This document shows positions 3,053-22,027 of a stretch of 64,000 nt of DNA, in pieces. Positions within the stretch are counted from its first letter, which is position 1; each line of letters starts with the position of its first letter. Source of the stretch: Paludisphaera mucosa (GTDB lineage Bacteria > Planctomycetota > Planctomycetia > Isosphaerales > Isosphaeraceae); NCBI RefSeq assembly GCF_029589435.1, contig NZ_JARRAG010000001.1:424808-488807 (forward strand). Reading direction: 5' to 3'. The translations under genes were made by a program, and so were the position numbers. Below the pieces are notes generated by a model, which saw only the letters and a list, made by a program, of their open reading frames with translations, had not been told where the DNA came from and ran no database searches.

Positions 3053-5082
3053 TCACTCGGCGTCGTCGGGGAGGTCCAGGATCTGGCCGACGACCAGGTG
3101 GGCGGGATCGTCGACGGCGTCGCGGTTGAGGTCGAGGATCTCGCGGGCTCGCCGCGAGTCGCCCAGGCGGTCGCGGGCGATGGAGCGGAGCGTCTCGTGG
3201 GGCCGGACCTTGTGGACGGGAGCCTTGGCCCGACGGGGGGCCGGCGCGGGCTCGTCGAGCTCGTCGCGCGGCGACGTCCGGCGGCGGTCGTCGCGATCGG
3301 CCGCCCGTTCGGTCGAGGGGTCGGAGACGGGCAGGTTCAGCTCGCCCTCGGGGCGGCTGGAGCGGCGGACCGGAGTCGCGCCGGCGGGCGCGGCCGTCTT
3401 GACCGCGGGCGTCTCGGGCTGGCTCGGGTCGCGGTTGCGGGCCGAGCGGCCGCCCGGGGGGTCGATGAACGCGGGGTCCAGATCCTCGGGGGGCGGGATG
3501 CGGACGACGGCCCCGACGTACAGGTCCTCCAGCCGCTGGAACTGGTCGGCGTTGGCCTTGCCGAGCGCCCGGTAGTAGCGGCCGGAGGCGTAATGGGTCC
3601 GCGAGATCGTCCAGAAGTTCTCGCCGGGCTGCACCTTGTGCAGCACCGTGTCCATCTTGCCCTCGTCGCGCTTCGCGACCGAGGCCGCGGTCGCCGTCGC
3701 GGCCGTGGCCGCCGCGGCGGCCGCCGCCTTGGCCCCGCCGGAGACGAACCGCACGGGATCGCCGACGTCGATGCGGGCGTCGTCACGCAGCGGATCCGCC
3801 GACGAGCCGGAGCGCGGGTCGAGATCGTCGTTCAGGCCGACGTCCATGGGGTCGAGCCTGGGCTCGCCCGAGCTGTGCTTGATCGGCACCCATCCCTCGG
3901 TCGACTTGGGGGCCGCGGCCTCGGCCGCGACGGGGGCGGCCGCCGCCTCGGGGACCGACCGGGGCAGTTCGGCGGGGGCGGTCGGAGGGGCTGCGACGGG
4001 GGCTGCGACGGGGACGGGGACGGGGACCGGGACGGGCGCGGCGGCCGGATCCGCCGGAGTTCCGCCGGCCGGCGGCGTCGCGGGGGCGGGTGCGGGGGAG
4101 GAGCCCGGATCGGCGACCGGCGGCAGGCCGCCCTCCGCCGGAGTCGGCGCCGGGGCGGCGCCCGCTCCGGGATCGCTTGCGGGTGCGGGCGCCCCGACGG
4201 CGGGCGGGAGATCGGCGGCCGGTTCCGATCCGGGCGCGGCGGGCCGGCTCGCTGCAGGGCGGGTGCGGGGCCGGGGCCGGGTCGGGCGGCTCGGCGGCGG
4301 GCGTCAGGCGGCGCCAGCGCGGGGCCGCCGGGCTTCGACCCGTCGTGGGCCGGCTCCGGGGTCGGGGCGGGCGCCGGCGCGGGGGCCGGGAGGTCGTCCT
4401 CGGGCTTCAAATCGGCGCTGGCGAGCAGGAGCGAAGGATTGGGTTCGGGGGCGGGGGCCGCGCCCAGGTCGGGGAGGGCCGGGTCGGCCGCCTTGGCGTC
4501 GACCATGGCCGGCAGGTCGGGGAAGCCCTCGCCGCTCGCCTGCTTCACCCCGTCGGCCGCCGGCGCGGGGGCGTCGGCGACGGGCGTCGGGGCTGGCGCA
4601 GGGGCCTCGGCTGCCACGGCCGCGGGGGCGGTGGGGGGCGTCGCCCCGTCTTCAGGACCCTTCGCCGCGGGGGCCGCCGGATCGACCGCGGGGGCGGCGC
4701 CGGCGTCCTTCGCAGGCCGGGGGGCGGCCGCGCCCGGCCCCGGCAGCTGGACGGTCGGCGACTTGCCGGGCTTCACCGAAAGCACGCCGCAGAGCACGAG
4801 CACCGACAGGCCCGAGGCGATCGACGCGCGGGGGTACGCGCGGGCCAACCCCGCTCCGCGGGCGGCCGTCGCCGAGGCCGTGCGCAGGCCCGACGAGGCC
4901 ATCGGCCCGATCCCGCCCAGGATCTTCGCCAATCCGCCGGGCGTCGACGCGCCGTCCCCGTCCGCCTCGCTCGCGTCGTCGTCGGATTCGGCCTCGGGCT
5001 CGGAGGAGGCGTAGGCGTCGTCCGCGTCGGCGTTCAGGTGCTGGGGCTCGTCGGGGTCGGGGTAGGTTCCTGATTCGACCAT
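3053..5082 (-). CDS. Membrane-anchored Pro/Ala-rich protein with two LysM domains, frameshifted
   Basis: Reading starts at ATG 5082 inside the end of rsmH (49-base overlap), so the two are probably cotranscribed. The protein has an acidic N-terminus, one membrane segment (around ASGLSVLVLCGVLSV), a long Pro/Ala-rich linker and two C-terminal LysM domains (around LHKVQPGENFW and VHKVRPHETLRS) that would bind peptidoglycan. The frame used from 5082 becomes Arg-rich and unnatural after about 4305, while the frame ending at 3053 is natural from about 4255 down to the stop. One net single-base shift between 4255 and 4305 joins them. It is either a sequencing error in GC-rich repeats or a real lesion. 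The position after rsmH is where ftsL sits in many bacteria; this protein is not FtsL by sequence. Confidence 0.65.
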
Positions 5083-6050
5083 CGTTCGGCCACCCTTAGT
5101 TTGGCGCTGCGGGCGCGGGGATTGACGGCCGTTTCCTCGGCCGTCGCGATGACGGGTTTCTTGGTCAGGACGGTCCACCTCGGGTCGTTGCGGAACGCCC
5201 ACTTCGTCGGACGGTCTTCCAGCGAATGGAAGCTGATGATCGCGGCGCGGCCGCCGGGCGCCAGGATGTCGGGAAGCTCGGCCAGGATCGCGTCGAGGTG
5301 CTTCAGCTCGTCGTTCACCAGGATCCGGAGCGCCTGGAAGACGCGGGTCGCCGGGTCGATGGGGCCGTGCCGCAGCTTGCCCGGGATGCACCGGCGGACC
5401 AGCTCGGCGAGCTGCCCGGTGGTGGTCAGGGGCTCGGCGTCGCGGGTCTCGACGATCCGCCGGGCGATCCGGCGGCTGAACCGCTCCTCCCCGAACTCGA
5501 AGAACGCCGTGGCGAGGTCCTCGGCCGACGACTCGGCCAGCAGGTCGGCGGCGGTCGGGCCGTCGGAGGTCGGGTCGAACCGCATGTCCAGCGGCCCGTC
5601 CGAGCCGAAGCTGAAGCCGCGATGCCGCCAGGCGAGCTGGTCCGACGAGAGCCCCAGGTCCAGCAGCACGCCGTCGACCTCCCCCGCGGCGATCCCGCGC
5701 CCCGCGAGCTTCTCCCGCATCGCGCTGTAGGGCGCGTGCACGAGGGAGACGGGGAGCCCGGCGGTCGCCTTGCGGGCCAGCTCCAGCATCTCCGGGTCGC
5801 GGTCGAAGGCCACCACGCGGCCGGAGTCGCCGACCCGACGGGCCAGGGCCGCGGCGTGGCCGCCGGCTCCGGCCGTGCCGTCGACGAGGATCGACCCCTC
5901 GCGCGGGGCGAGCCAGGCGACCACCTCGTCGATCAGGACGGGGCGGTGGACGGCCCGCGGAGCCCGCTCGGGTTCGAGCCCGCCTGGATCCGGCGTCTCC
6001 TCGGGTGACACGGCCTGGACGCTCGTTTCCGTGAAAGGGCGACGAACCAC
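5034..6050 (-). CDS. rsmH: 16S rRNA (cytosine(1402)-N(4))-methyltransferase RsmH
   Basis: This 338-aa protein methylates N4 of C1402 in the decoding centre of the 30S subunit with S-adenosylmethionine. Family signatures are HRPVLIDEV (35-43), the SAM-binding DGTAGAGGH (57-65), DLGLSSDQL and near the end ISFHSLEDR. Length matches the family (about 310-340). The most upstream start is the GTG at 6050, and the first 30 residues are a poorly conserved extension. The gene is divergent from nusB and overlaps the LysM gene downstream, in the arrangement of a remnant division and cell-wall cluster without mraZ or ftsI next to it. Confidence 0.95.
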   Translation of the reverse strand: MVRRPFTETSVQAVSPEETPDPGGLEPERAPRAVHRPVLIDEVVAWLAPREGSILVDGTAGAGGHAAALARRVGDSGRVVAFDRDPEMLELARKATAGLPVSLVHAPYSAMREKLAGRGIAAGEVDGVLLDLGLSSDQLAWRHRGFSFGSDGPLDMRFDPTSDGPTAADLLAESSAEDLATAFFEFGEERFSRRIARRIVETRDAEPLTTTGQLAELVRRCIPGKLRHGPIDPATRVFQALRILVNDELKHLDAILAELPDILAPGGRAAIISFHSLEDRPTKWAFRNDPRWTVLTKKPVIATAEETAVNPRARSAKLRVAERWSNQEPTPTPTSPST

Positions 6051-6371
6051 CCCGCCGTCGAGATGGTGCGCCGGAATCTACCCGACCGCCCGTTCCTGTC
6101 AATCCCGACGCCCCGGCGGGCGCCCGGCCGGCCCGGACGATCGCTCTCCATCTTTATCGATCGTCGCGCGGCGAACGTCCCCTTGAGCCCAAGTCCGCGG
6201 CCCCCCGCCGCCGCCGCGGCCTCTGGCCTTTCCGCGGGGGGGAGCCCCGGGATATGATGACTGGGAAAGAATAAAGGGTTCGGGCGGCGCCGTCGCGAGA
6301 CGAGACTGCGGACCAGGGACGGCGAAGCCGTGCTGTTTGATCGAGGCCGAGGCGGCCGGGGCGAGTTCATC

Positions 6372-6896
6372 ATGACGCGACGTTCTCGGGGGCGCGAAGT
6401 CGCCCTCCAGGTCCTGTACCAGCTCGAGCAGAACTCGGGCGTCATGACGGCCGACGTCCGTCGCTTCATCGACCGCCGGCTGCTGGGCGACCGCGACCTG
6501 ATCGCATTCACCGTCGGCCTGATCGAGGGCGTCCAGAAGCATCAGCCGGCGATCGACGAGGCCATCAAGCAGGTCGCCGAGAACTGGCGGCTCGACCGCA
6601 TGGCCGCCATCGACCGCAACATCCTCCGCGTCGGCGCGTTCGAGATCCTGCATCGCCCCGAGGTCCCCGCCAAGGTCGCCATCAACGAGGCGCTCGAGCT
6701 GGCCAAGCGTTACAGCACCGCGCAGTCGAGCCGGTTCGTCAACGGCATCCTCGACAAGGTCCTCCAGCTCCAGCACCCCACGCCCAAACCGGCTGCGGAG
6801 GTCGAGCCGGAGCCCGAGGCCGACGTGGAGCCCGATCCGGCTCCCGCACCCGAGCCCGCCCCGTCCCCGGCCGCCGAGGAAGGCCCCGGCGCGTGA
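6372..6896 (+). CDS. nusB: Transcription antitermination protein NusB
   Basis: NusB pairs with S10 (NusE) to bind boxA RNA in rRNA antitermination complexes. The 174-aa product contains the family core RSRGREVALQVLYQLE at the start and the conserved KVAINEALELAKRYS and RFVNGILDKV blocks. The family is usually near 140 aa; here about 40 residues rich in Pro, Glu and Ala are added at the C-terminus. The ATG at 6372 gives the typical N-terminus; an in-frame ATG at 6330 is possible. A TATGAT at 6253-6258 could be its -10 box, but the -35 is poor. The stop overlaps the next gene by four bases, so the two are translationally coupled. Confidence 0.93.
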   Translation: MTRRSRGREVALQVLYQLEQNSGVMTADVRRFIDRRLLGDRDLIAFTVGLIEGVQKHQPAIDEAIKQVAENWRLDRMAAIDRNILRVGAFEILHRPEVPAKVAINEALELAKRYSTAQSSRFVNGILDKVLQLQHPTPKPAAEVEPEPEADVEPDPAPAPEPAPSPAAEEGPGA

Positions 6897-10120: not shown

Positions 10121-11650
10121 ATGGCGACCTTCCGCATCGACGCGCTCGGTGAGACGCCGGCCCGGCTTCGCTCCTGGCTCGATCGCGCCCGCAAGGCGAC
10201 GGCCGGCCGATCCGCGCCCGTGCGGCTCGGCCTGCTCGCGGTTTTGGCCGGCGGGGTCGCCGTGGCCGCCTGCCTGGCGGCCTGGTCGATCGCCCCGGCC
10301 GAGCGGGTCCTGCTGGCCTCGGGGCGGTCCTTCCGACAGGACGACCTGGACAGGGTCGAGCGGGCGCTGCGGGCCCAGAACATCGACTACAAGCTCGACG
10401 AGCGCCGCGTGAGCGTCGCCGGCCGCTCGGCCGACGCCGCCTCGGCGATCGTCGCCAAGCTCGACCTCGGCCCGCGGTCGCTCGACGAGCTGCGCGACGG
10501 CGCCGCCGCCTCGTCGTTCTGGGAGACGCCCCGCGACAAGGAGGAGCGCGCCCAGCGCGAGCGCGCCAAGGTCTTCGAGTCGATGATCGACGACCTGCCG
10601 GGCGTGGAAAGCTCCTTCGTCTGGATCAGCCGCGAGCGCCAGCGCGGGGTGCTGCGGCCGGCGACGCGCACGACGGCCCTGGTGCGGGTGCAGGCCGAAG
10701 GGGGCCGCGAGCTGCCGCCGAGCACGGTCGAGTCGATCACCTCGATCGTCACCGCGGCCGAGCCGGGCCTGACGCGGCAGTCGTTCACCGTCATGGACCG
10801 CGAGGGCCGCCTCTACCGCGACGCCGGCAACCCGGCCCTGACCGCGCTCTCGAACAACCGGGCCCGCGAGGAGGACCTGAGCCGCCGGATCCTCGACAAG
10901 CTCGCCTGGATCAAGGACGTCCGCGTCACCGTCAAGCTCGAAGACCCGCCGGCCGCCCCCCAGCCGGTCGCCGTCGCCGTCGCGGTCGAGCCGGCCCCGC
11001 GCCGCGAGCCCGAGGTCGTCCCGGCCCCGCCGACGATGTCGGTCGGCCTCAACCGCGCGATGGAGCTGGGCCCGGATGACGAGGCCCCCGCGGCCGAGGC
11101 GCCGGCCCCTGCGGCCGCCCCGCCGCCCGCGCCCCTTCGGCGACGCGGCGAGGTCTGGGTGCTCGTCCCCCGCAGCTACTATTACAACGCCGGGCTGCTC
11201 CCCGAGGGCGGGCAGACCTCGCACGAGGACCACCTCGCGCTGATGACCCGGACCAAGGCGCTGATCCGCAACGCGGTGCGGCTGGTGATCCCCGAGGCCG
11301 ACGGCGTCGACTGGGCGCCGACCGAGATCGACGACCTCCCCGACGAGCTGACGACCGACCGCGCGCCGGCCGACGCCGCGGGCGCCGGGCGGCGCACGGC
11401 CCGCGAATGGGCGATGGCCGGCGCGGCGGGCGCCGCCGCCGCCGCGATCGTGGCCCTCGGGACCTGGGTCTTCGGCGGCCGGCAGCCGTCGCGGCGGGCC
11501 TCCCCCGGCCGCGGCGACCTCCGCTACCACCGCGGGACGGCCGGCGCGCCGGCACCCACCGAGCGGGTCCTCGAATTCGTCCGCCGCAACCCCGAGACCG
11601 CCTTCAGCGTGCTCAACCGCTGGACGACCCAGGGAGGGGGAAGGTCATGA
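10121..11650 (+). CDS. fliF: Flagellar MS-ring protein FliF
   Basis: FliF forms the inner-membrane ring on which the export gate and FliG sit. The 509-aa product (usual 530-570) has a first membrane helix at about 34-56, a periplasmic part with the YscJ/FliF ring folds (LASGRSFRQDDLDRVERAL, then VFESMIDDLPGVESSFVWIS), a Pro/Ala-rich linker, and a second membrane helix near EWAMAGAAGAAAAAIVALG. The cytoplasmic tail VLEFVRRNPETAFSVLNRW matches the FliF tail that binds the N-terminal domain of FliG, so this contact seems kept. The stop overlaps fliG by ATGA. Confidence 0.87.
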   Translation: MATFRIDALGETPARLRSWLDRARKATAGRSAPVRLGLLAVLAGGVAVAACLAAWSIAPAERVLLASGRSFRQDDLDRVERALRAQNIDYKLDERRVSVAGRSADAASAIVAKLDLGPRSLDELRDGAAASSFWETPRDKEERAQRERAKVFESMIDDLPGVESSFVWISRERQRGVLRPATRTTALVRVQAEGGRELPPSTVESITSIVTAAEPGLTRQSFTVMDREGRLYRDAGNPALTALSNNRAREEDLSRRILDKLAWIKDVRVTVKLEDPPAAPQPVAVAVAVEPAPRREPEVVPAPPTMSVGLNRAMELGPDDEAPAAEAPAPAAAPPPAPLRRRGEVWVLVPRSYYYNAGLLPEGGQTSHEDHLALMTRTKALIRNAVRLVIPEADGVDWAPTEIDDLPDELTTDRAPADAAGAGRRTAREWAMAGAAGAAAAAIVALGTWVFGGRQPSRRASPGRGDLRYHRGTAGAPAPTERVLEFVRRNPETAFSVLNRWTTQGGGRS

Positions 11651-12285
11651 ACGCGTCGACCCCGTCCGCCCGTCCGAGCCACCGCCGCGACGCCGGCGCC
11701 GAGCCGTCGCGCGACGACCTCGACGCGCCCGCCGAAGCCCTGGGCCCGGCCCCCGCGGCCGCCGAGGCCCCGTCGACGGCCTCGATCCCGGCCCTGCGCA
11801 AGGCGGCCATCGTCCTCGTCAGCCTGGAGCAGTCGCTGTCGACCCAGATGCTCGCGCACCTCGACCGCGACGCCGTCGAGGCCGTGACCTGGGAGATCGC
11901 CCGCATGGAGCGCGTCGACCCGGCCGAGCAGGCCGTCGTCCTGGAGGAGTTCCTCCGCCTCGGCCTGCGGCGCCTCTGCTTCGTCTTCGAAGACCTGCTC
12001 CGCATGGGCGACCGCGAGATCCGCGCCGCCTTCCGCGGCGAGGACGCCGAGGCCTGGGCCCTGGCCCTCGCCGGCTCGGCCCCGCCGCTCCGCGCCAAGG
12101 TGCTCGGCGCCCTGAACGCCTCGGCCGCCCACACGCTCCAGCGCCACCTGGAGAACCTCGGCCCGTTCCGGCTCTCCGACACGGAGGTCGCGCAGGTCGA
12201 GATCGCCGAACGGCTCCGGATCCTCTACGACCAGGGCGCGATCGACCTGCCCGATCCCAGCGGCCGCGAGGAAGTGCTGGTCTGA
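11647..12285 (+). CDS. fliG: Shortened FliG: N- and C-terminal domains only
   Basis: FliG is the switch protein that links FliF to FliM and receives torque from the stator. This copy has 212 aa against about 330 in the family. Residues 1-47 are low complexity, 48-103 match FliG_N (RKAAIVLVSLEQSLSTQML), and 110-200 match FliG_C (FVFEDLLRMGDREI, then LGPFRLSD). The middle domain with the EHPQ motif that binds FliM is absent. Aligned by eye to E. coli FliG, torque residues K264, R281, D288 and D289 correspond to A142, S159, R166 and H167; only R297 is kept (R175). The gene is translationally coupled to fliF, which supports its identity. A canonical role in rotation is doubtful. Confidence 0.82.
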   Translation: MNASTPSARPSHRRDAGAEPSRDDLDAPAEALGPAPAAAEAPSTASIPALRKAAIVLVSLEQSLSTQMLAHLDRDAVEAVTWEIARMERVDPAEQAVVLEEFLRLGLRRLCFVFEDLLRMGDREIRAAFRGEDAEAWALALAGSAPPLRAKVLGALNASAAHTLQRHLENLGPFRLSDTEVAQVEIAERLRILYDQGAIDLPDPSGREEVLV

Positions 12286-12351: not shown

Positions 12352-12855
12352 ATGGCTCGAGCCAAGGCCCCCATCCTGATCCTCGCCCTGATGCTGGCGA
12401 CCGCCCCGGCCGTCCGGGCGCAGGACGCGGCGCCCGATTCGAAGACGGCCCGGCCGACGCTCGCGAGCAAGCGGGCCCGGACGTCCTTCGCCCCCGTCTC
12501 GCAGAGCTGGTGGCTGGGGACGGCCTTCATGATCCTGGTCCTGGGCGTCGCCGGGGCGGTCTGCATCGCCGCGAAGCACCAGGGCGCCGGCAACTCGCCG
12601 GTCAAGCTCCAGGTCGTCGGCCGCGTCGCGCTCCCGCCCAAGCACGCCGTCTTCGCCGTCAAGGCCGGCGGCCGCACGCTCCTGATCGGCACCGGCCCCC
12701 AGGGCGCCCCTTCGCTCCTCGGCGAGCTGGAGGACGACGAGCCGGACGCCACCACCTCGACCCTGGCCCGCGTCGACGCGGCGGCCCCCCTCGCGTCCCG
12801 CCGCCCGATCCCCGCGCCCGGCCGCTTCGACGTCCGGATCGGAGACGAATCATGA
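12352..12855 (+). CDS. fliO: FliO-like flagellar export gate assembly protein
   Basis: FliO helps FliP form its ring in the export gate. The 167-aa product starts at ATG 12352 and shows a signal-like N-terminus ending VRAQD, a membrane helix near WWLGTAFMILVLGVAGAVCIA and a cytoplasmic domain VVGRVALPPKHAVFAVKAGG followed by LLIGTG, the FliO hallmark. The position directly before fliP supports the call, since FliO is weakly conserved. The last 40 residues are low complexity. Confidence 0.75.
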   Translation: MARAKAPILILALMLATAPAVRAQDAAPDSKTARPTLASKRARTSFAPVSQSWWLGTAFMILVLGVAGAVCIAAKHQGAGNSPVKLQVVGRVALPPKHAVFAVKAGGRTLLIGTGPQGAPSLLGELEDDEPDATTSTLARVDAAAPLASRRPIPAPGRFDVRIGDES

Positions 12856-13094: not shown

Positions 13095-13913
13095 ATGGGC
13101 GGGCTCCTGCTGCTCTTCCTCACGATCGCCGGGCCTTGCTTCGCGCAGGCCCCGACGGGGGCGGGACGCAAGACGGTGACGCGCCTGAACGAGCCGGCCG
13201 CGGTCACGGAGCCGGCGTCGGCCGCCGAGAAGCCGGCGCCCGCGTTCAACCCGGCCGACGCGGCCCGCACGGTGCAGTCGATCGTCCTCTTCGGCGCGGT
13301 CTCGCTGGCGCCGGTCGCGCTCCTGATGATCACGCCGTTCGTGCGGATCAACATCGTCCTGATCCTGCTCCGGCAGGCGCTCGGCAGCCCGCAGGTGCCC
13401 GGCAATCAGGTGCTGACGGCGTTGGCCCTCTTGCTCAGCGCGCTGATCATGCGTCCGGTTGCCGAGCGGGTGTACGCCGACGCGGTCCAGCCCTACGTCG
13501 CCGGCCGGACGGGCGCGGTCGAGGCCTGGAATGCGGGCTCGGCCCCGATCAAGACGTTCATGGTCGACCAGATCGTCATGACGAATCATCAGGACTACCT
13601 GACGACCCTCCACGATCGCTCCCGCCCCGCCACCCCCGGCGCGGCCCAGCCGGAACGCCCGGAGGACTTCGCGATCGGCGTCGTCGCGCCGGCGTACATC
13701 CTCAGCGAGCTGACGACCGCCCTGAAGATCGGTTTCATGCTCTATCTGCCGTTCCTGGTGATCGACCTGGTGGTCTCGGCGGTCCTGGCGGCGATGGGGC
13801 TGTTCATGCTGCCGCCGACGCTGATCTCGACCCCCGCGAAGCTCATCGTCTTCGTCCTGGCCGACGGCTGGCTGCTCGTGGCCGACATGCTCCTCGCCGG
13901 CTTCTCGGCGTAG
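13095..13913 (+). CDS. fliP: Flagellar export gate protein FliP
   Basis: FliP is the main pore-forming subunit of the FliP5Q4R1 export gate. The 272-aa product has a signal peptide (MGGLLLLFLTIAGPCFA), then four membrane segments with the family blocks ITPFVRINIVLILLRQALG, NQVLTALALLLSALIM, the AYILSELTTALKIGF box and FVLADGWLLVADML. The ATG at 13095 is chosen because it gives the cleavable signal and follows GGGGGAAGG, five bases away, which belongs to the right end of the REPIN-like repeat. The frame is open upstream but through repeat DNA. Confidence 0.93.
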   Translation: MGGLLLLFLTIAGPCFAQAPTGAGRKTVTRLNEPAAVTEPASAAEKPAPAFNPADAARTVQSIVLFGAVSLAPVALLMITPFVRINIVLILLRQALGSPQVPGNQVLTALALLLSALIMRPVAERVYADAVQPYVAGRTGAVEAWNAGSAPIKTFMVDQIVMTNHQDYLTTLHDRSRPATPGAAQPERPEDFAIGVVAPAYILSELTTALKIGFMLYLPFLVIDLVVSAVLAAMGLFMLPPTLISTPAKLIVFVLADGWLLVADMLLAGFSA

Positions 13914-13936: not shown

Positions 13937-14203
13937 GTGGACGTCAACCAGGCCCTCGATTGGACGCGCGAGGCGCTCCGGCTCACCCTGCTGCTCGGCG
14001 GCCCCTTGCTGGCCGCGGCCCTGGTGGTCGGGCTGGCGGTGAACATCCTCCAGACGCTGACCCAGCTCAACGAGCCGGTCGTCGGCCTGGTGCCCCGGCT
14101 GGTGGCGGTGATCGTGGCGACGCTGATCCTGCTCCCCTGGCTGGCCGCCCGCTGGATCGACTTCACGGTCGACCTGATCGGCTCGATCCCGGACATGCTC
14201 TAG
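13937..14203 (+). CDS. fliQ: Flagellar export gate protein FliQ
   Basis: The 88-aa product has two membrane helices, as in all FliQ/SctS proteins (typically 86-90 aa). Family signatures are LTLLLGGPLLAAALVVGLAV and NILQTLTQLNEPVVGLVPRL. The start is GTG 13937 behind a strong AAAGGAGG at 13923-13930. It lies between fliP and fliR in the usual order, with 23-base gaps, consistent with one operon. Confidence 0.93.
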   Translation: MDVNQALDWTREALRLTLLLGGPLLAAALVVGLAVNILQTLTQLNEPVVGLVPRLVAVIVATLILLPWLAARWIDFTVDLIGSIPDML

Positions 14204-14227: not shown

Positions 14228-14995
14228 ATGGGCGACATCCCGTTCGACGTCGGCTGGTACACCGCGAACGCGGCGGCGTCCGCCCTGATCGCGGCCCGCG
14301 CGGCGGGCGTCTGCTTCACGGCCCCGGTCCTCGCCGCGCCCGGGATCGACTGGCGATTCCGCGTCGTGGCGGCCCTGGCGCTCGGGGCCTGGATGACGCC
14401 CCTGGCCGCGGCGACGGTCGCCTCGCCCGCGTCGCCGTTCGGCCTCGGCTGGCTGGTCGTCAACGAGCTGCTGGTCGGGGGCCTGATCGGCCTGTCGGCG
14501 TCGCTCGTCGTCGCCGGCGCCAAGCAGGCGGGGGAACTCGTGGCGGTCCAGGCGGGGCTGGCGACGGCGTCGCTGTTCGACCCCGAGACGGGCGAGGAGC
14601 TGACGGCGCTCGGCCACCTCTACGGCCTGATCGCGATCGCGACCTTCCTGGCGATGGACGGCCCGCTGGTCATGGTCGACGCCCTGCTCCAGAGCTTCCA
14701 GACGATCCCGGCGGGCCGGCTCGTCTTCGAGCGGAGCACGGCCCAGGCGATGTTCGCGCAGGCGGCTGAGGCGCTCAAGCTGGCCCTCCGAGCCGCCGCG
14801 CCGCCGGCGGTCGCGCTGGCGACGGCCGGCGTGGCGCTCGGCTGGCTCGGCCGGATGGCCCCGAGCGTCCCCCTGATGGCGCTCTCGTTGCCGATCCGCG
14901 CGGCCCTGGGCGTGCTGCTCGTCATGGCGAGCCTCGCCGCGCTAGCCGCCTGTTTAGACGGCGCGTGGATCGCCTGGGCACGCGGCGGGCTTTGA
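14228..14995 (+). CDS. fliR: Flagellar export gate protein FliR
   Basis: FliR occupies the single-copy position at the tip of the export gate. The 255-aa protein has about six membrane segments, the conserved GLIGLSASLVVAGAKQAGEL region and the FDPETG-like segment after it. Length agrees with the family (about 260). The ATG at 14228 follows fliQ by 24 bases. Confidence 0.92.
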   Translation: MGDIPFDVGWYTANAAASALIAARAAGVCFTAPVLAAPGIDWRFRVVAALALGAWMTPLAAATVASPASPFGLGWLVVNELLVGGLIGLSASLVVAGAKQAGELVAVQAGLATASLFDPETGEELTALGHLYGLIAIATFLAMDGPLVMVDALLQSFQTIPAGRLVFERSTAQAMFAQAAEALKLALRAAAPPAVALATAGVALGWLGRMAPSVPLMALSLPIRAALGVLLVMASLAALAACLDGAWIAWARGGL

Positions 14996-15019: not shown

Positions 15020-16051
15020 ATGTCGGAAGACCGCACGCAGCCCGCATCCCCCCGACGCCGACAGCTCGCCCGCGAGCAGGGCCAGGCCGCGCACAGCCCC
15101 GAATTGACGGCCGCCGCCGGCTGGCTGGTCGCCGTCACGCTGCTGACGTGCTTCGGATCCTCCATGTCGGGATCGCTCGTCGACCTCGTGCGGTCACCGT
15201 TGGTCGGTCCCGCCGCGCGGCTGGAGGACGCCGTCGACCTCGCATGGCTGGTGCGTGACGCGGTTGTCGCCGTCGCGTCGCCCGTCGCCATTCTGCTCGT
15301 CGGCTTCGCGGCCGGCGCATTCGCGGCGCATCAGGGCCAGACCCGCGGCCTCTGGTCGCCCGCGCTCATCGCCCCCGACCCCTCGCGGCTCTGGCGCGTC
15401 GGCCGCGGCGGCGGGATCGGCGCCGGCGTGGAGCGCAGCGTCTGGTCGGTCGTGAAGGCCCTGATCCTGGCGAGCGTGGTCGTCTGGGCCGTCCGCTCGC
15501 GCTGGGGCGCCCTGCAAGGTCTGAGCTTCCTCGACTTCCCCGACGCCGCGCGGGGGGCCTTGTCGATCCTCCTCGCCCCGGCGTGGGCGCTGGCGGCGGC
15601 GATGCTCGCCGTGGGGGTCGTCGACTACGGGCTGCGGTCCGCCCGATTCGAGGCCATGCTGCAGACGACGCCCGAGGAGCAGCGCGAGGACCTGCGGACG
15701 ATCGAGGGCGATCCCAAGGCCCGCGCCTCGCGGCGTCGGCTCGCCCAGGCGTGGCGCGACGGAACGCCCGAGCTGCTCGAAGGCGCCTCGCTCGTCCTGC
15801 TGGGCGACGCCGGCCTGGTGGTCGTGCTCGCCGGCGGCCCGCCGCCGCGCAAGGTCTTCGTGCGGGTGATCGGCCAGGGGAGGTCGGGCGGGTCGATCCG
15901 CAAGGCGGCCGTCCGGGCGAAGCTCCCGCAGCGCGACGCCGCGCAACTGGCCCTGCGGATCGCCTCGCGGGCGGAGGCCGCCTCGCCCCGGGCCGCGATC
16001 GCCGATCCCCTTCTGATCGCCCAGCTTCGCGCCGCGTGGCCGACCGCCTGA
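15020..16051 (+). CDS. flhB: FlhB-type export switch protein lacking the NPTH self-cleavage motif
   Basis: FlhB surrounds the gate and normally cleaves itself between Asn and Pro of NPTH to switch substrates from hook to filament. The 343-aa product has the family N-terminus RRRQLAREQGQAAHSPEL (13-30), four membrane segments (to about 205), and the EGDPKARASRRRLAQ linker (229-243). Where NPTH should be, in VVITNPTH-like context, the sequence is LVLLGDAGLVVVL with GDAG at 262-265. The rest of the C-domain is recognisable (ALRIA near 311, ADPLLIAQL near 328). Cleavage by the known mechanism needs the Asn and Pro, so it should not occur. It lies in the normal place between fliR and flhA. Confidence 0.87.
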   Translation: MSEDRTQPASPRRRQLAREQGQAAHSPELTAAAGWLVAVTLLTCFGSSMSGSLVDLVRSPLVGPAARLEDAVDLAWLVRDAVVAVASPVAILLVGFAAGAFAAHQGQTRGLWSPALIAPDPSRLWRVGRGGGIGAGVERSVWSVVKALILASVVVWAVRSRWGALQGLSFLDFPDAARGALSILLAPAWALAAAMLAVGVVDYGLRSARFEAMLQTTPEEQREDLRTIEGDPKARASRRRLAQAWRDGTPELLEGASLVLLGDAGLVVVLAGGPPPRKVFVRVIGQGRSGGSIRKAAVRAKLPQRDAAQLALRIASRAEAASPRAAIADPLLIAQLRAAWPTA

Positions 16052-16277: not shown

Positions 16278-18521
16278 ATGCCTCCCTCGACGTCCGGTAG
16301 TTCCGCCGCCTGGAGAGCCGCCTCGGGGCTGGTCTTGCCGATCACCATCGTCGGCGCCGTCCTCGTGTTCGTCGTGCCCGTCTCGCCCGACGTGCTCGAC
16401 CTGCTGCTCGCGGCCAACCTGACGCTGGCGGTCCTGGTGCTGCTGACGACGCTGGCGATCCGCTCGCCGCAGGAGTTCAGCGCCTTCCCGACGATCCTGC
16501 TGACCACGACGCTGACCCGGCTGGTGCTCAACGTCGCCACCACGCGGCTGATCCTGACCCGCGGCGGCGAGCACGGCGTCGACGCGGCCGGCACGGTCAT
16601 CCGGGCCTTCGGCGAGTTCGTGGCGCGGGACCAGGTGCTCGTCGGCGTGATCCTGTTCGTCATCCTGGTCGTCATCCAGTTCGTGGTCATCACGAAGGGG
16701 GCCACGCGGATCAGCGAGGTCGCCGCGCGGTTCATGCTCGACGGCCTGCCGGGCCGCCAGATGGCGATCGACTCCGACCTGCACGCCGGGCTCATCGACC
16801 AGCACCAGGCCCACGCCCGGCGCGACGAGGTCTATCGCCAGGCGGACTTCTTCGGGGCGATGGACGGCGCCGGCAAGTTCGTCCGGGGCGACGCGGTGGC
16901 GGGCGTGGTGATCCTGCTGGTGAACATCGCCGGCGGCCTGTTCATCGGCGTCGTCCAGAACGGGATGGACTTCGGCAAGGCCGTCGACGTCTTCACGAAG
17001 CTGACGATCGGCGACGGCCTGGTGAGCCAGGTGCCGGCGTTCCTGATCTCGCTGGCGGCCGGCCTGATCGTCACGCGGTCGTCGTCGGCCAGCGACCTGG
17101 GCCGCGACGTCGTCGGCCAGCTCACGCGGAACCCGAGCGTCCTGGGGGTCTCGTCGGCCTTCCTCGGGCTGCTCGCCTTCACGCCGCTCCCCAAGATCCC
17201 CCTGCTCACGATCGCGGCCGTCCTCGGCTGGCGGGCCTACCGCCTGCGCGGGACGGGCCCCGGCGAGATGGACGCCGAGCACCACGAGTCCCGCCCGGCC
17301 CCGCGCCGGGCCGCCCGCGCCGAGGAACCTCGCGCCGAGAACGAGCCGGGCCCGCGCCCGACGGCGACGGCGGCCGAGCCGACCCGCATCACGGGCGACG
17401 CGGCGTCGGACGACATGGAGAACCTGCTGCACGTCGACCTGCTGGAGCTGGAGATCGGCTATCGGCTCATCAGCCTGGCCGACTCGACTCGCGGCGGCAA
17501 CCTGCTGGAGCGGCTGCGGACCGTCCGCCAGGACGTGGCCCGCGAGCTGGGCCTGATCGTCCCCCAGGTCCGCATCCACGACGAGATCGGCCTCTCGGCG
17601 CACGAGTACCGCGTGAAGATCCGCGGGACCGTGGTCGGCGCGGGCTCGGCCTACGCCGGGCGGCTGCTGGCGATCCCGCCGGCCGGCCTGGGCGACCGCC
17701 CCGAGGGCCGCGAGGCCGTCGACCCCGCCACCGGTCAGGCCGCCGTCTGGATCCACGCCGAGGGCCGCGAGGTCGCCGAGCTGGCCGGCTGCAAGATCCT
17801 CGACGCGTCGGCCGTCGTCGCCGCCCACTTCGGCGAGATCGTCCGCAGCCACGCCGACGAGCTGCTCACCCGAGACCAGATCGAACGCCTCCTCGACCGC
17901 GTCCGGACCACGGCGCCCACGCTCGCGAACGAGGTCGTCCCCGGCCTGCTCCGGCCCGGCGAGCTGCAGCGCCTGCTGCAGAACCTGCTGCGCGAGCAGG
18001 TGAGCGTCCGCGACCTGGAGACGATCCTGGAGACGATGGCCGTCCACGCCGGCAAGCCGAAGGACGTCGAGTCGCTGACCGAGCTGGCGCGGCAGAGCCT
18101 GGCGCGGCAGATCACCGAGAGCCACCGCTCGACCGACGGCCGGCTCCGCGTCGTCACGCTCTCGCAGGACCTCAACACCCGGCTCACGATCGTGGCCGCG
18201 CAGTCCGAGGCGCACCCGTCGGAGGCCCTGGGCGACGAGACGGTCCGCAGCATCCTCCGCGCCGTGGCCCAGGGGGTCGGAGCCCTGATCGACGTCGGCC
18301 TGCCGCCGATCGTCCTGACCTCGGCCTCGGCCCGCGCCGTGCTCAAGGACCTGACCCGGGCCGACCTGCCCCGGCTGGTCGTCCTCAGCCAGCGCGAGAT
18401 CCCTCGCGACACGCCCGTCGAGGTGCTGGGGACGATCGTCGAGGAGCCGACCGAGGCCGACGAGCCGGCCGAGCCCGCCGTCGACCCGGTGACGTTCGCC
18501 ACGACCGAGGCGTTCGCATGA
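16278..18521 (+). CDS. flhA: Flagellar export protein FlhA
   Basis: FlhA forms the nonameric ring of the export apparatus that receives chaperone-substrate complexes and couples export to proton motive force. The 747-aa protein has about eight membrane helices in the first 340 residues, the family box TLTRLVLNVATTRLIL and the FHIPEP-type loop GRQMAIDSDLHAGLIDQ, then an acidic Arg/Ala-rich linker and the cytoplasmic domain beginning near DLLELEIGYRLISL. The family is about 690 aa; the surplus is in the linker. Start is ATG 16278 behind GAGAGGA. The stop overlaps flhF by ATGA. Unlike FliG and FlhB, I see no loss of key segments. Confidence 0.94.
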   Translation: MPPSTSGSSAAWRAASGLVLPITIVGAVLVFVVPVSPDVLDLLLAANLTLAVLVLLTTLAIRSPQEFSAFPTILLTTTLTRLVLNVATTRLILTRGGEHGVDAAGTVIRAFGEFVARDQVLVGVILFVILVVIQFVVITKGATRISEVAARFMLDGLPGRQMAIDSDLHAGLIDQHQAHARRDEVYRQADFFGAMDGAGKFVRGDAVAGVVILLVNIAGGLFIGVVQNGMDFGKAVDVFTKLTIGDGLVSQVPAFLISLAAGLIVTRSSSASDLGRDVVGQLTRNPSVLGVSSAFLGLLAFTPLPKIPLLTIAAVLGWRAYRLRGTGPGEMDAEHHESRPAPRRAARAEEPRAENEPGPRPTATAAEPTRITGDAASDDMENLLHVDLLELEIGYRLISLADSTRGGNLLERLRTVRQDVARELGLIVPQVRIHDEIGLSAHEYRVKIRGTVVGAGSAYAGRLLAIPPAGLGDRPEGREAVDPATGQAAVWIHAEGREVAELAGCKILDASAVVAAHFGEIVRSHADELLTRDQIERLLDRVRTTAPTLANEVVPGLLRPGELQRLLQNLLREQVSVRDLETILETMAVHAGKPKDVESLTELARQSLARQITESHRSTDGRLRVVTLSQDLNTRLTIVAAQSEAHPSEALGDETVRSILRAVAQGVGALIDVGLPPIVLTSASARAVLKDLTRADLPRLVVLSQREIPRDTPVEVLGTIVEEPTEADEPAEPAVDPVTFATTEAFA

Positions 18522-19651
18522 CCTTCGAACGGCCCGCGAGGCGGGCGACGGGGAGCGACCTGGAGGCCAGGACCTATCGCGGCCGGACGATGCGGGAGGC
18601 GTTGGCGCGGGTGCGCCGGGACCTCGGCGGCGACGCCGTGATCCTCGCCGCCCGCGAGGTCCGCCGCCGCCGGCTGTTCGGCCTCGGGCCGGGCGCGACG
18701 GTCGAGGTCGACGCCTCGTCGCCGACCGCCGACTGGGTCGCGGCCCCTCCGGAATCGCGGCCCCCGCGCGGACTGGGGACCGACCTGGGTCGCGTCCACG
18801 CGATGGTCGGCGCGCTGAGCCGCCGCGGCCTGATGGAACAATGGTCGCCCGACCTGCCCGCCGAGCTGGCCTCGGCCTACGCACGACTCCTGGAAGCCGA
18901 CGCGCCCGAGGCGTTCGCCCGGGCGCTCGTCCGCGAGGCCGCCGCCTCCGCCACGGCCGAGGACCTGTCGACCCCCGCCCCGGCCCGCGCGGCCGTCCGG
19001 CGCGTCCTGGAGGACGCGCTGGCCGTGGCCTCGCCGATCCGGGCGGTCTCGGGGACGCGGCGGGTCGTCGCCCTGGTTGGCCCGACCGGCGTCGGCAAGA
19101 CGACGACGATCGCCAAGCTCGCCGCGACGCTCAAGCTCCAGCAGGGCGTGCGCGTGGGCCTCCTCACGGTCGACGCCTACCGCATCGCGGCCGTCGAACA
19201 ACTCAAAACCTACGCCGACATCATCGACGTCCCGCTGGCGGCCGGCGACGACCCGGACTCGGCCCGCCGCGGGCTCGACGAACTCGGTCCGGTCGACGTG
19301 GTCCTGGTGGACACCGCCGGCCGGAGCCCCCGGGACGGCGAGAAGATCCGCGAGCTGGGCGAGCTGCTGGCTCGGCTGCGGCCCGACGAGGTCCACCTGG
19401 TCCTCAGCGCGGCGACGTCGGCGCGGGGCCTGGGCGCGGCGGCCGACCTGTTCGCCCCGGCGCGGCCGGACCGCTTGATCTTGACCAAGCTCGACGAAGC
19501 CGAGACCCTGGGGCCGCTCCTGGCGGTCCTGGGCCGGGCCGACCGCCCCGTCAGCTACCTGGCGACGGGGCAGGCCGTCCCGGACGACGTCGAAGCCGCC
19601 TCGCGGGGCCGCCTCGCCCGGCTGATCCTGGGCGAAGAACCGATCGCATGA
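18518..19651 (+). CDS. flhF: SRP-type GTPase FlhF
   Basis: FlhF is the third SRP-family GTPase and sets the place and number of flagella, dimerising on GTP. The 377-aa product has a basic N-terminal B domain (TYRGRTMREALARVRRDLG), a variable N domain and a C-terminal NG domain with GPTGVGKTTTIAKLAA, DAYRIAAVEQLKTYADI, DTAGRSP and TKLDEAETLG. These boxes separate it from FtsY and Ffh. It is coupled to flhA by ATGA overlap and is followed after 73 bases by the small gene at 19725 that carries the FlhF-activating motif. Confidence 0.93.
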   Translation: MTFERPARRATGSDLEARTYRGRTMREALARVRRDLGGDAVILAAREVRRRRLFGLGPGATVEVDASSPTADWVAAPPESRPPRGLGTDLGRVHAMVGALSRRGLMEQWSPDLPAELASAYARLLEADAPEAFARALVREAAASATAEDLSTPAPARAAVRRVLEDALAVASPIRAVSGTRRVVALVGPTGVGKTTTIAKLAATLKLQQGVRVGLLTVDAYRIAAVEQLKTYADIIDVPLAAGDDPDSARRGLDELGPVDVVLVDTAGRSPRDGEKIRELGELLARLRPDEVHLVLSAATSARGLGAAADLFAPARPDRLILTKLDEAETLGPLLAVLGRADRPVSYLATGQAVPDDVEAASRGRLARLILGEEPIA

Positions 19652-20226: not shown

Positions 20227-21003
20227 ATGTCAACCAAGGTGGATGTGGATGTGACCGAACTCTGGCGGGAGTTCAAGGAACAGCCCACCACGGAGCTGCG
20301 GAACCAGCTGGTCGAGCGTTACTTGGCCCTCGTCAAGTACAACGCCGAGCGCATCTGGCAGCGGCTGCCCGAAGGGGTCGACCTGGACGACCTGATCTCG
20401 GCGGGCGTCTTCGGCCTGATGGACGCGATCGACGCGTTCGACTTGACCCGCGGCGTCAAGTTCGAGACCTACTGCGTACCCCGAATCCGCGGCGCCATGC
20501 TCGACGAGCTGCGCACCATGGACTGGGTGCCCCGGCTGGTGCGCTCCAAGGCCACCAAGATGGAAGAGGCCCGCAAGGAGCTGGAGGCCCGCCACGGCCG
20601 CCCGCCCACGGGTCCCGAGCTGGCCGAGCGGCTCGGCCTGCCGATGGAGGAGTTCGAGAAGATGGCGATCGACGCCAACGCCGTCGGCCTCATCAGCCTG
20701 AACAAGAAGTGGTACGAGACCGACAGCTACAAGGACGTCCGCGAGATCGACATCCTCGAGGACAAGAAGGGGGAGGACCCCACCCGGCGGCTCCAGCGCA
20801 AGGACCTGATGCGCATGGTGACCAAGGGGCTCAACCGCAACGAGCGCCTCATCATCATCCTCTATTATTATGAAGAACTGACGATGAAAGAGATCGGCGC
20901 GACGCTCGACCTGAGCGAGTCGCGGGTCTCTCAGATGCACTCGTCGATCATCCAGCGGCTGCAGTCGCAGCTCTCCTTCCGCCGCCCCGAGTTCGGCACC
21001 TGA
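20227..21003 (+). CDS. fliA: RNA polymerase sigma-28 factor FliA/WhiG type
   Basis: The 258-aa product is a group 3 sigma factor with region 2 (RYLALVKYNAERI, DLDDLISAGVFGLMDAIDAFD, FETYCVPRIRGAMLDELR), region 3 (GRPPTGPELAERLGL) and a region 4 helix-turn-helix (LTMKEIGATLDLSESRVSQ). The ending MHSSIIQRLQSQL is typical of FliA. In flagellated bacteria it drives late genes such as flagellin and is held by FlgM; no flgM is seen here. The ATG at 20227 is preceded by ACGGAGGTCAGG. Confidence 0.93.
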   Translation: MSTKVDVDVTELWREFKEQPTTELRNQLVERYLALVKYNAERIWQRLPEGVDLDDLISAGVFGLMDAIDAFDLTRGVKFETYCVPRIRGAMLDELRTMDWVPRLVRSKATKMEEARKELEARHGRPPTGPELAERLGLPMEEFEKMAIDANAVGLISLNKKWYETDSYKDVREIDILEDKKGEDPTRRLQRKDLMRMVTKGLNRNERLIIILYYYEELTMKEIGATLDLSESRVSQMHSSIIQRLQSQLSFRRPEFGT

Positions 21004-21292
21004 CCCGGACGCGACGGGGCCCCGCCCGCCGGCCGGCCGATCCGTCCCGTCACGACCCGGACCGATCCGCCGAACCCGCCCCCCGGCTCTCGGGCGCCCC
21101 CCGAAGGCCGAGGGGCGGGTTCGCGCGCCGCCTCGATCGCGGGGTCCGGCGCTTCTCTTCCCGCCGCGGTCGTCTTAGAATGGACTTCGCGTCGCCGTCC
21201 GTCCTCGATCCGTCGACGGCGTCGCCGGGCCGGCGCCCGCGCGTCCGCCCCTCCGACGGCCCTTCCCACTCCGGATCCGGGTGACCGACGAC

Positions 21293-22027
21293 ATGAAGAC
21301 GCGTCAAGCTGCGCCGGCCCTCGTGCTCTGCCTCGCCGCCCTCGCCGCGACGGCCTCGCCCGCCCGCGCCCAGGGCTTCGGCTACGGCTTCGGGGGCCTG
21401 GCGATGCCCTGGGTCCCCTCGCCGACGAACGCCGTCAACGACTGGGCCCTGCAGAACGCCGCCCGGGGCGGCCAGCGACCCCCCTCGAACAACGTCTACG
21501 CCAACAACCCCAACTCGTACATCAACCGCATCCGCGACAACGGCTTCGTCTCGCAGCAGGACGCCCGGGGCCGCGTGCCCGGGAGCCGACGCGCCGCCCA
21601 GGCCGCCGCGCGGTCGCTCGGCCAGGCCGCGACCGCCGCCGCCGAGCCCGCGCCCAAGGCGGCCCCGACCCCGGCACCGCCGCCGGCGAAGCCGACCCTG
21701 CCGATCGCGAGCTTCTTCGACGCCGCCGGCCGGCTCGTCTGGCCCTCGGACTCGCCCGTGGACGGCGAGTTGAAGGCCAAGCGCGACGTCTCCGACCAGG
21801 CCACGATTGCCGTCCGCCGCGAGATCGACGCGCAGGGCTGGGCCCCCATCGCCCTGGCCGCCGAGGCCCGCCAGAAGCTCCTGGACTACGGCCGCCCGGC
21901 CCTCCAGGAGATCCGCCAGGCCTCCACCCCCCGGATCGCCGAGGCGTTCCACGAGTTCCTCATGGGCCTGTACGACGCCCTCGGCGCCGCGACCGTCCCC
22001 CCGCCGCCGCCCGCCCCGCCGCGCTGA
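21293..22027 (+). CDS. Secreted Ala/Pro-rich hypothetical protein
   Basis: About 244 aa. Residues 1-27 are a signal peptide ending in an ARA-Q junction, followed by a Gly/Phe/Tyr stretch (GFGYGFGGLAMP). The middle is Ala/Pro-rich and the C-terminal half has a helical region (VRREIDAQGWAPIALAAEARQKLLDYG). A GTG at 21281 in the same frame would add four residues; the ATG at 21293 gives the normal Lys-Thr-Arg signal start. No family is recognised. It ends 37 bases before the converging thioredoxin-like gene. Confidence 0.65.
   Translation: MKTRQAAPALVLCLAALAATASPARAQGFGYGFGGLAMPWVPSPTNAVNDWALQNAARGGQRPPSNNVYANNPNSYINRIRDNGFVSQQDARGRVPGSRRAAQAAARSLGQAATAAAEPAPKAAPTPAPPPAKPTLPIASFFDAAGRLVWPSDSPVDGELKAKRDVSDQATIAVRREIDAQGWAPIALAAEARQKLLDYGRPALQEIRQASTPRIAEAFHEFLMGLYDALGAATVPPPPPAPPR

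Follow-up and report, generated by a model that had tools for sequence, protein, structure and literature searches.

Autocleavage of the export-gate subunit FlhB has been studied mostly through laboratory mutants. In Salmonella, the cleaved domain of FlhB carries a pocket for early substrates; blocking autocleavage abolishes the switch and yields polyhooks, and the gate becomes locked in late mode when Fluke and the cleaved domain are both removed (PMC13344023). In Isosphaeraceae, flagellar genes are poorly represented and motile swarmer cells are absent (PMC5352709); the relevant passages contain no description of a retained gate.

Here we compare the gate locus of the isosphaeracean Paludisphaera mucosa with these and other described systems. 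The locus resembles those of Salmonella and other flagellated bacteria in the family, membrane domain, and FlhBc fold of its FlhB, and in having flhB next to the FliR and FlhA genes; unlike those bacteria, Isosphaeraceae lack NPTH, FliK, hook, and filament. Like the reduced non-flagellar type III secretion system (T3SS) of Myxococcales (PMC3459982), Isosphaeraceae have long kept a gate without rod, hook, or stator; however, the Myxococcales system keeps its ATPase and branches basally to injectisomes, whereas the Isosphaeraceae gate has no ATPase and lies among planctomycete flagellar gates. As in Buchnera flagellar basal bodies (PMC8109811), flagellin and motor genes are lost and an export apparatus, presumed in Buchnera to be repurposed, is kept; in contrast, the rod and partial hook genes that Buchnera keeps are absent from Isosphaeraceae.

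The P. mucosa operon and its FlhB

The window (the whole stretch of DNA analyzed, 64,000 nt of contig NZ_JARRAG010000001.1) contains the following features:

10121–11650, + strand: divergent FliF-like MS-ring protein (Pfam YscJ_FliF, 66.9 bits; NCBIfam fliF, only 27 bits), syntenic across Isosphaeraceae
11647–12285, + strand: shortened FliG-like protein (Pfam FliG_N, 49 bits; FliG_C, 74 bits; middle domain below cut-off)
12352–12855, + strand: FliO (Pfam FliO, 30.7 bits, over cut-off)
13095–13913, + strand: FliP (Pfam FliP, 211.6 bits)
13937–14203, + strand: FliQ (Pfam Bac_export_3, 77.4 bits; GTG start)
14228–14995, + strand: FliR (Pfam Bac_export_1, 150 bits)
15020–16051, + strand: FlhB without autocleavage site (Pfam, 119.5 bits; AlphaFold2 model; structural matches)
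15803–15814, + strand: GDAG in place of NPTH, FlhB residues 262–265 (alignments, translation, model)
16278–18521, + strand: well-conserved FlhA (Pfam FHIPEP, 770 bits)
18518–19651, + strand: FlhF-like GTPase (Pfam SRP54, 141 bits; operon position)
20227–21003, + strand: FliA-like sigma factor (Pfam Sigma70 r2, r3, and r4; 98% identical within Paludisphaera)

The type III export-gate components FliP, FliQ, FliR, and FlhA are all present. In particular, FlhA residue 205 (codon at 16890) is, by alignment, the retained equivalent of Salmonella D208, the role of which is described in PMC3139655. The FliG-like protein has ~212 residues and little middle domain, and it keeps its C-terminal domain despite the absence of MotB from the genome. 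Downstream of fliA, a gene at 21281–22027, the product of which apparently carries a signal peptide and has no Pfam match, is present in 5 of 30 clustered Isosphaeraceae loci. A family of secreted ~200-residue proteins, encoded upstream of fliF in some loci and present in 11 of 30 clustered loci, was considered as a conserved substrate candidate and set aside because the proteins apparently carry their own signal peptide.

The flhB gene (15020–16051, + strand) is a single intact ORF of 343 codons with homology extending to its end, ruling out a frameshift, in agreement with the initial annotation, which had called the rest of the gene intact. Its product has the membrane domain and matches Pfam Bac_export_2 (PF01312) with 119.5 bits (curated cut-off, 24.4 bits; E = 2.5e-34) over profile positions 1–311 of 335. 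Its match to the NCBIfam flhB equivalog TIGR00328 reaches 81.3 bits (cut-off, 349.25 bits) and is confined to profile positions 1–243, so that most of the divergence is C-terminal. The P. mucosa genome contains no second FlhB, canonical or otherwise, the FlhB of the locus being the only copy, and a profile search of the genome gave no match for FliK, the two genes whose presence elsewhere had been raised with the initial annotation.

Codons 15803–15814 (GGC GAC GCC GGC) encode GDAG at residues 262–265. BLASTP against canonical planctomycete FlhB pairs ASLVLLGDAGLVVVL with ADVVITNPTHVSVAL, and alignment of an Isosphaeraceae profile with the FlhBs of solved structure pairs 'vvtGasgltvvl' with 'VIVTNPEHFSVAL'. 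By these two alignments and a multiple alignment, NPTH is replaced in register by GDAG, as had been read from the letters of the window, and a shift of NPTH, as opposed to its loss, is ruled out. Judged from its sequence, P. mucosa FlhB lacks the Asn-Pro of the autocleaving switch and cannot undergo autocleavage by the known Asn-Pro route.

The AlphaFold2 model of P. mucosa FlhB (mean pLDDT 81.7) retains the FlhBc fold, with pLDDT ~82–91 over most of residues 251–320, and places GDAG as a turn between two strands (residues 256–261 and 267–272). The C-terminal domains of EscU, YscU, and FlhB match the model at Z 10–13, with non-cleaving EscU and YscU mutants among the closest, and the FlhB of 6s3l_K aligns to it over residues 25–215 at Z 11.2. 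The cytoplasmic domain is thus predicted to be recognizable around the site, as first proposed.

The replacement is shared by relatives. Specifically, Asn-Pro is present at the site in 0 of 27 Isosphaeraceae FlhBs (the family including Paludisphaera, Singulisphaera, Aquisphaera, and Tautonia) versus 20 of 21 FlhBs from other Planctomycetia families, the exception being that of genome G054; with Asn-Pro absent from all 27, GDAG is therefore no sequencing error. Gly occupies the Asn position in 22 of the 27 and the His position in 21, and on these counts the Isosphaeraceae replacement is a conserved G-x-x-G turn, not random drift. The cleaved C-terminal domain, FlhBcc, is wholly lost in several Isosphaeraceae (G013, G018, G024, and Tautonia); a C-terminal domain surviving downstream in another frame was found in none of six truncated FlhB loci searched. 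In the Paludisphaera congener G001 (locus L032, FlhB region 4579–6419, minus strand), a frameshift, either real or an assembly error, falls within FlhBcc just after the GDAG strand. Several native flagellar FlhBs (L003–L006, L013, and L018) carry NPTE instead of NPTH.

Flagellar gene content of Isosphaeraceae

We performed profile searches over 59 genomes, comprising 37 Isosphaeraceae and 22 genomes from other families. Flagellin and MotB were each found in 0 of 37 Isosphaeraceae versus 20 of 22 other-family genomes; credible rod and hook genes in none of the 37 (doubtful matches in G008, G021, and G029 only) versus 20 of 22; FliK over cut-off as one doubtful match (G008) in the 37 versus 20 of 22; and FliI over cut-off (TIGR01026, 379.5) in 0 of 37 versus 21 of 22. 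The best Isosphaeraceae score against TIGR01026 is ~237 bits, as for rotary ATPases, and the 20 flagellated relatives and G054 all exceed 497. The P. mucosa genome itself lacks the flagellin, rod and hook, stator, and FliK ruler of a bacterial flagellum, as well as a FliI/SctN export ATPase.

The doubtful matches were rejected. Those to FliK, FlgD, and FlgE in G008 lie together on one 6.2-kb contig of a genome without FlhB or FlhA; the contig is therefore probably a contaminant. Those in G021 and G029 are lone flgB-like genes (L170:3859–4275 and L171:3694–4113, respectively) near plasmid-type genes, with ParA-like and antirestriction-like neighbors.

The gate, by contrast with the parts lost, is kept. 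FlhB is present in 33 of 37 Isosphaeraceae (the genomes without it being fragmentary assemblies, 68–85% complete), and FlhA is present, intact and with >700 bits, in 36 of 37, across ~20 genera. The order FliF-FliG-FliO-FliP-FliQ-FliR-FlhB is kept in most Isosphaeraceae loci examined, usually with FlhA-FlhF-FliA next to it; in G024, FlhB is separated from the rest of the gate.

Of the 37 Isosphaeraceae, 26 encode one SpoA (FliMN_C)-domain protein. The sole SpoA-domain protein of P. mucosa (L105:7002–8970; G000:C1, ~1.645 Mb) has 393 aa, with SpoA at its C-terminal end, and is encoded away from the operon. Its gene overlaps a 265-aa gene without a Pfam match and adjoins genes for two kinases (one a PAS histidine kinase, the other a hybrid kinase) and for a response regulator; the arrangement is kept in several relatives. 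The protein is possibly a C-ring remnant tied to signaling.

The co-occurrence of FliF, FliG, the gate, FlhF, and FliA in one operon might suggest a working, highly divergent flagellum with cleavage-independent switching. This reading is largely refuted, and we regard it as extremely improbable: flagellin, FliI, MotB, and credible rod, hook, and FliK are absent throughout the 37 genomes, the profiles that fail here match 20 to 21 of the 22 other-family genomes, and described Isosphaeraceae lack motile swarmer cells (PMC5352709). P. mucosa FlhB belongs to the family of FlhB gate subunits, lies outside the autocleaving switch class, and is no part of a flagellum. The initial annotation had held that the switch must be absent or use another route; this stands insofar as the Asn-Pro site is lost, and falls insofar as it presupposed a flagellum in need of a hook-to-filament switch.

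Switch-less gates across Planctomycetia

A survey of FlhB in 198 Planctomycetia genomes revealed FlhBs in other families for which the profile match stops at ~220–244 of 335. We read 20 low-scoring FlhB loci outside Isosphaeraceae, with five further low-scoring FlhBs lying outside this count. Eighteen of the 20 end directly after the linker helix, having lost the cleavage domain; in the other two (G141 and G076) the C-terminal domain is kept, the site reads DGLA or NGMA, and FlhB is uncleavable. The uncleavable FlhBs of the P. mucosa family, G141, and G076 are natural counterparts of the Salmonella N269A laboratory mutant, and the 18 other loci and several Isosphaeraceae are natural counterparts of Salmonella FlhB without its cleaved C-terminal domain (PMC13344023). 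Unlike the laboratory mutants, the planctomycete states are natural, are fixed across genera, and occur in gates apparently lacking a flagellum of their own.

In seven genomes, a second, full-length FlhB is present beside the switch-less one (G050, loci L177 and L217; G052, L178 and L218; G149, L179; G164, L186; G172, L192; G190, L181; and G194, L180). Among the 20 other switch-less genomes, searches for flagellin, FliK, and hook covered G050, G052, and G054; profile searches of G054 gave no flagellin, rod, FliK, or MotB, and this genome keeps FliI, SpoA proteins, and a gate. Eight genomes (G038, G039, G043, G044, G047, G048, G051, and G056) contain small FlhB-C-like ORFs of ~91–153 aa near a second match of FliK type, the arrangement of FlhX/YlqH pairs.

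We constructed a gate tree from FliP, FliQ, FliR, and the FlhB membrane domain, including the 14 of 20 switch-less loci that have neighboring FliPQR genes. The tree reveals two Planctomycetia lineages. The full-length FlhBs of the seven two-gate genomes fall in a lineage that clusters with other phyla. The other, native lineage comprises flagellar gates from several families that bear NPT(H/E), together with switch-less gates scattered among them according to host family; within it, Isosphaeraceae form a well-supported group. In an independent FlhA tree, G050 and G052 each have a second FlhA that falls among native f2 flagellar FlhAs, apart from the flagellar FlhAs of the same two genomes, and G054 FlhA falls with native f5/f7 FlhAs. 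Parsimony on the gate tree requires at least four changes of switch state; counting strongly supported branches only, two changes fall in the non-Isosphaeraceae set, plus one. By this reconstruction, the FlhB switch has been lost independently in native-lineage gates at least about three or four times. A native gate decoupled from flagella, with its switch lost several times, is an outcome that the initial annotation did not foresee.

The trees also bear on whether the locus encodes an injectisome-like system delivering effectors to other cells, since they nest the gate with planctomycete flagellar gates. Flagellum-derived non-flagellar systems have been described, among them the reduced type of Myxococcales (PMC3459982), which combines gate and ATPase without rod or hook; however, the Isosphaeraceae gate has no ATPase, and its FlhA scores as flagellar (753.6 bits versus 500 bits for hrcV). 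An injectisome is marked by a secretin and a needle; secretin profiles match other systems as well. Judged by the ATPase, the FlhA score, and the trees, an injectisome-like system is very unlikely.

Selection on the gate and its proposed function

Within Paludisphaera, dN/dS, calculated by NG86 and rough at 72% GC, is <1 for all gate genes: ~0.16–0.28 for FlhA, 0.17–0.40 for the FlhB membrane domain, and 0.44–0.64 for FlhBcc, which is the least constrained part. From these values, from the retained FlhA aspartate, and from the loss of FlhBcc in several members, the gate is under purifying selection, with FlhBcc relaxed yet conserved in many Isosphaeraceae. The low constraint on FlhBcc and its complete loss in several Isosphaeraceae could reflect slow decay.

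Decay of the whole locus, that is, a functionless remnant of a lost flagellum in which loss of NPTH is one erosion among many, would account for the disappearance of FliI, rod, hook, filament, ruler, and stators, for an FlhBcc that is the fastest-evolving part and is deleted in several genera, and for the frameshift inside the FlhBcc of congener G001. It would not account for dN/dS well below 1, for an FlhA that remains intact (>700 bits) in all but one of the 37 genomes and across ~20 genera, for the persistence of FlhB, FliPQR, and synteny, or for native gates kept even beside another flagellar system. We therefore consider a decaying relic unlikely.

The explanation we favor, and judge probable, is that the locus is a native planctomycete flagellar gate that has outlived its flagellum and would carry out single-mode, non-flagellar export of a presumed substrate. 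At the level of sequence, loss of Asn-Pro is family-wide, flagellin, FliI, and MotB are gone, and FliF, FliG, FliOPQR, FlhA, FlhF, and FliA remain. With flagellin, FliI, MotB, credible rod and hook genes, and FliK absent, there is no hook-to-filament transition and therefore nothing to switch; selection on FlhB autocleavage would have disappeared because that transition had disappeared. In Isosphaeraceae FlhBs that keep the C-terminal domain, the domain would be folded and neither cut nor released, and the gate would consequently be fixed in the specificity state it has at assembly. By analogy with Salmonella N269A, that state may be the early mode; domain-deleted FlhBs, by analogy with the Salmonella deletion mutant, may instead leave the gate fixed in late mode. 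Because FliI is absent and the essential aspartate of FlhA is kept, export would be powered by proton motive force. Weighing against the favored reading are the absence of FliI and the frequent absence of the SpoA ring protein. FlhB residue 28, the site of the Salmonella ATPase-bypass substitution P28T, was considered as an explanation of ATPase-free export and rejected: flagellated relatives also have Ala, Val, or Thr there.

A broader proposal, to which we give about even weight, is that the native gate of Planctomycetia has a conserved role outside the flagellum which persists after the flagellum is lost, that the gate is kept even beside a flagellar system of another lineage, that its FlhB switch is lost whenever the gate is released from building flagella, and that it is ATPase-free in Isosphaeraceae. 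The open-access papers examined contain no description of such a pattern; a prior report in subscription journals is possible.

Uncleavable and domain-deleted FlhBs have both been supplied by nature many times, in gates persisting over tens of genera. They allow a test of a current question, namely whether the cleaved domain acts purely as a lock on the hook-to-filament switch (PMC13344023); if it does, it should be dispensable in hookless gates, as seen here. For mechanistic studies, the Isosphaeraceae gate offers a candidate for type III export without an ATPase, and its retention points to an unrecognized export task in planctomycetes.
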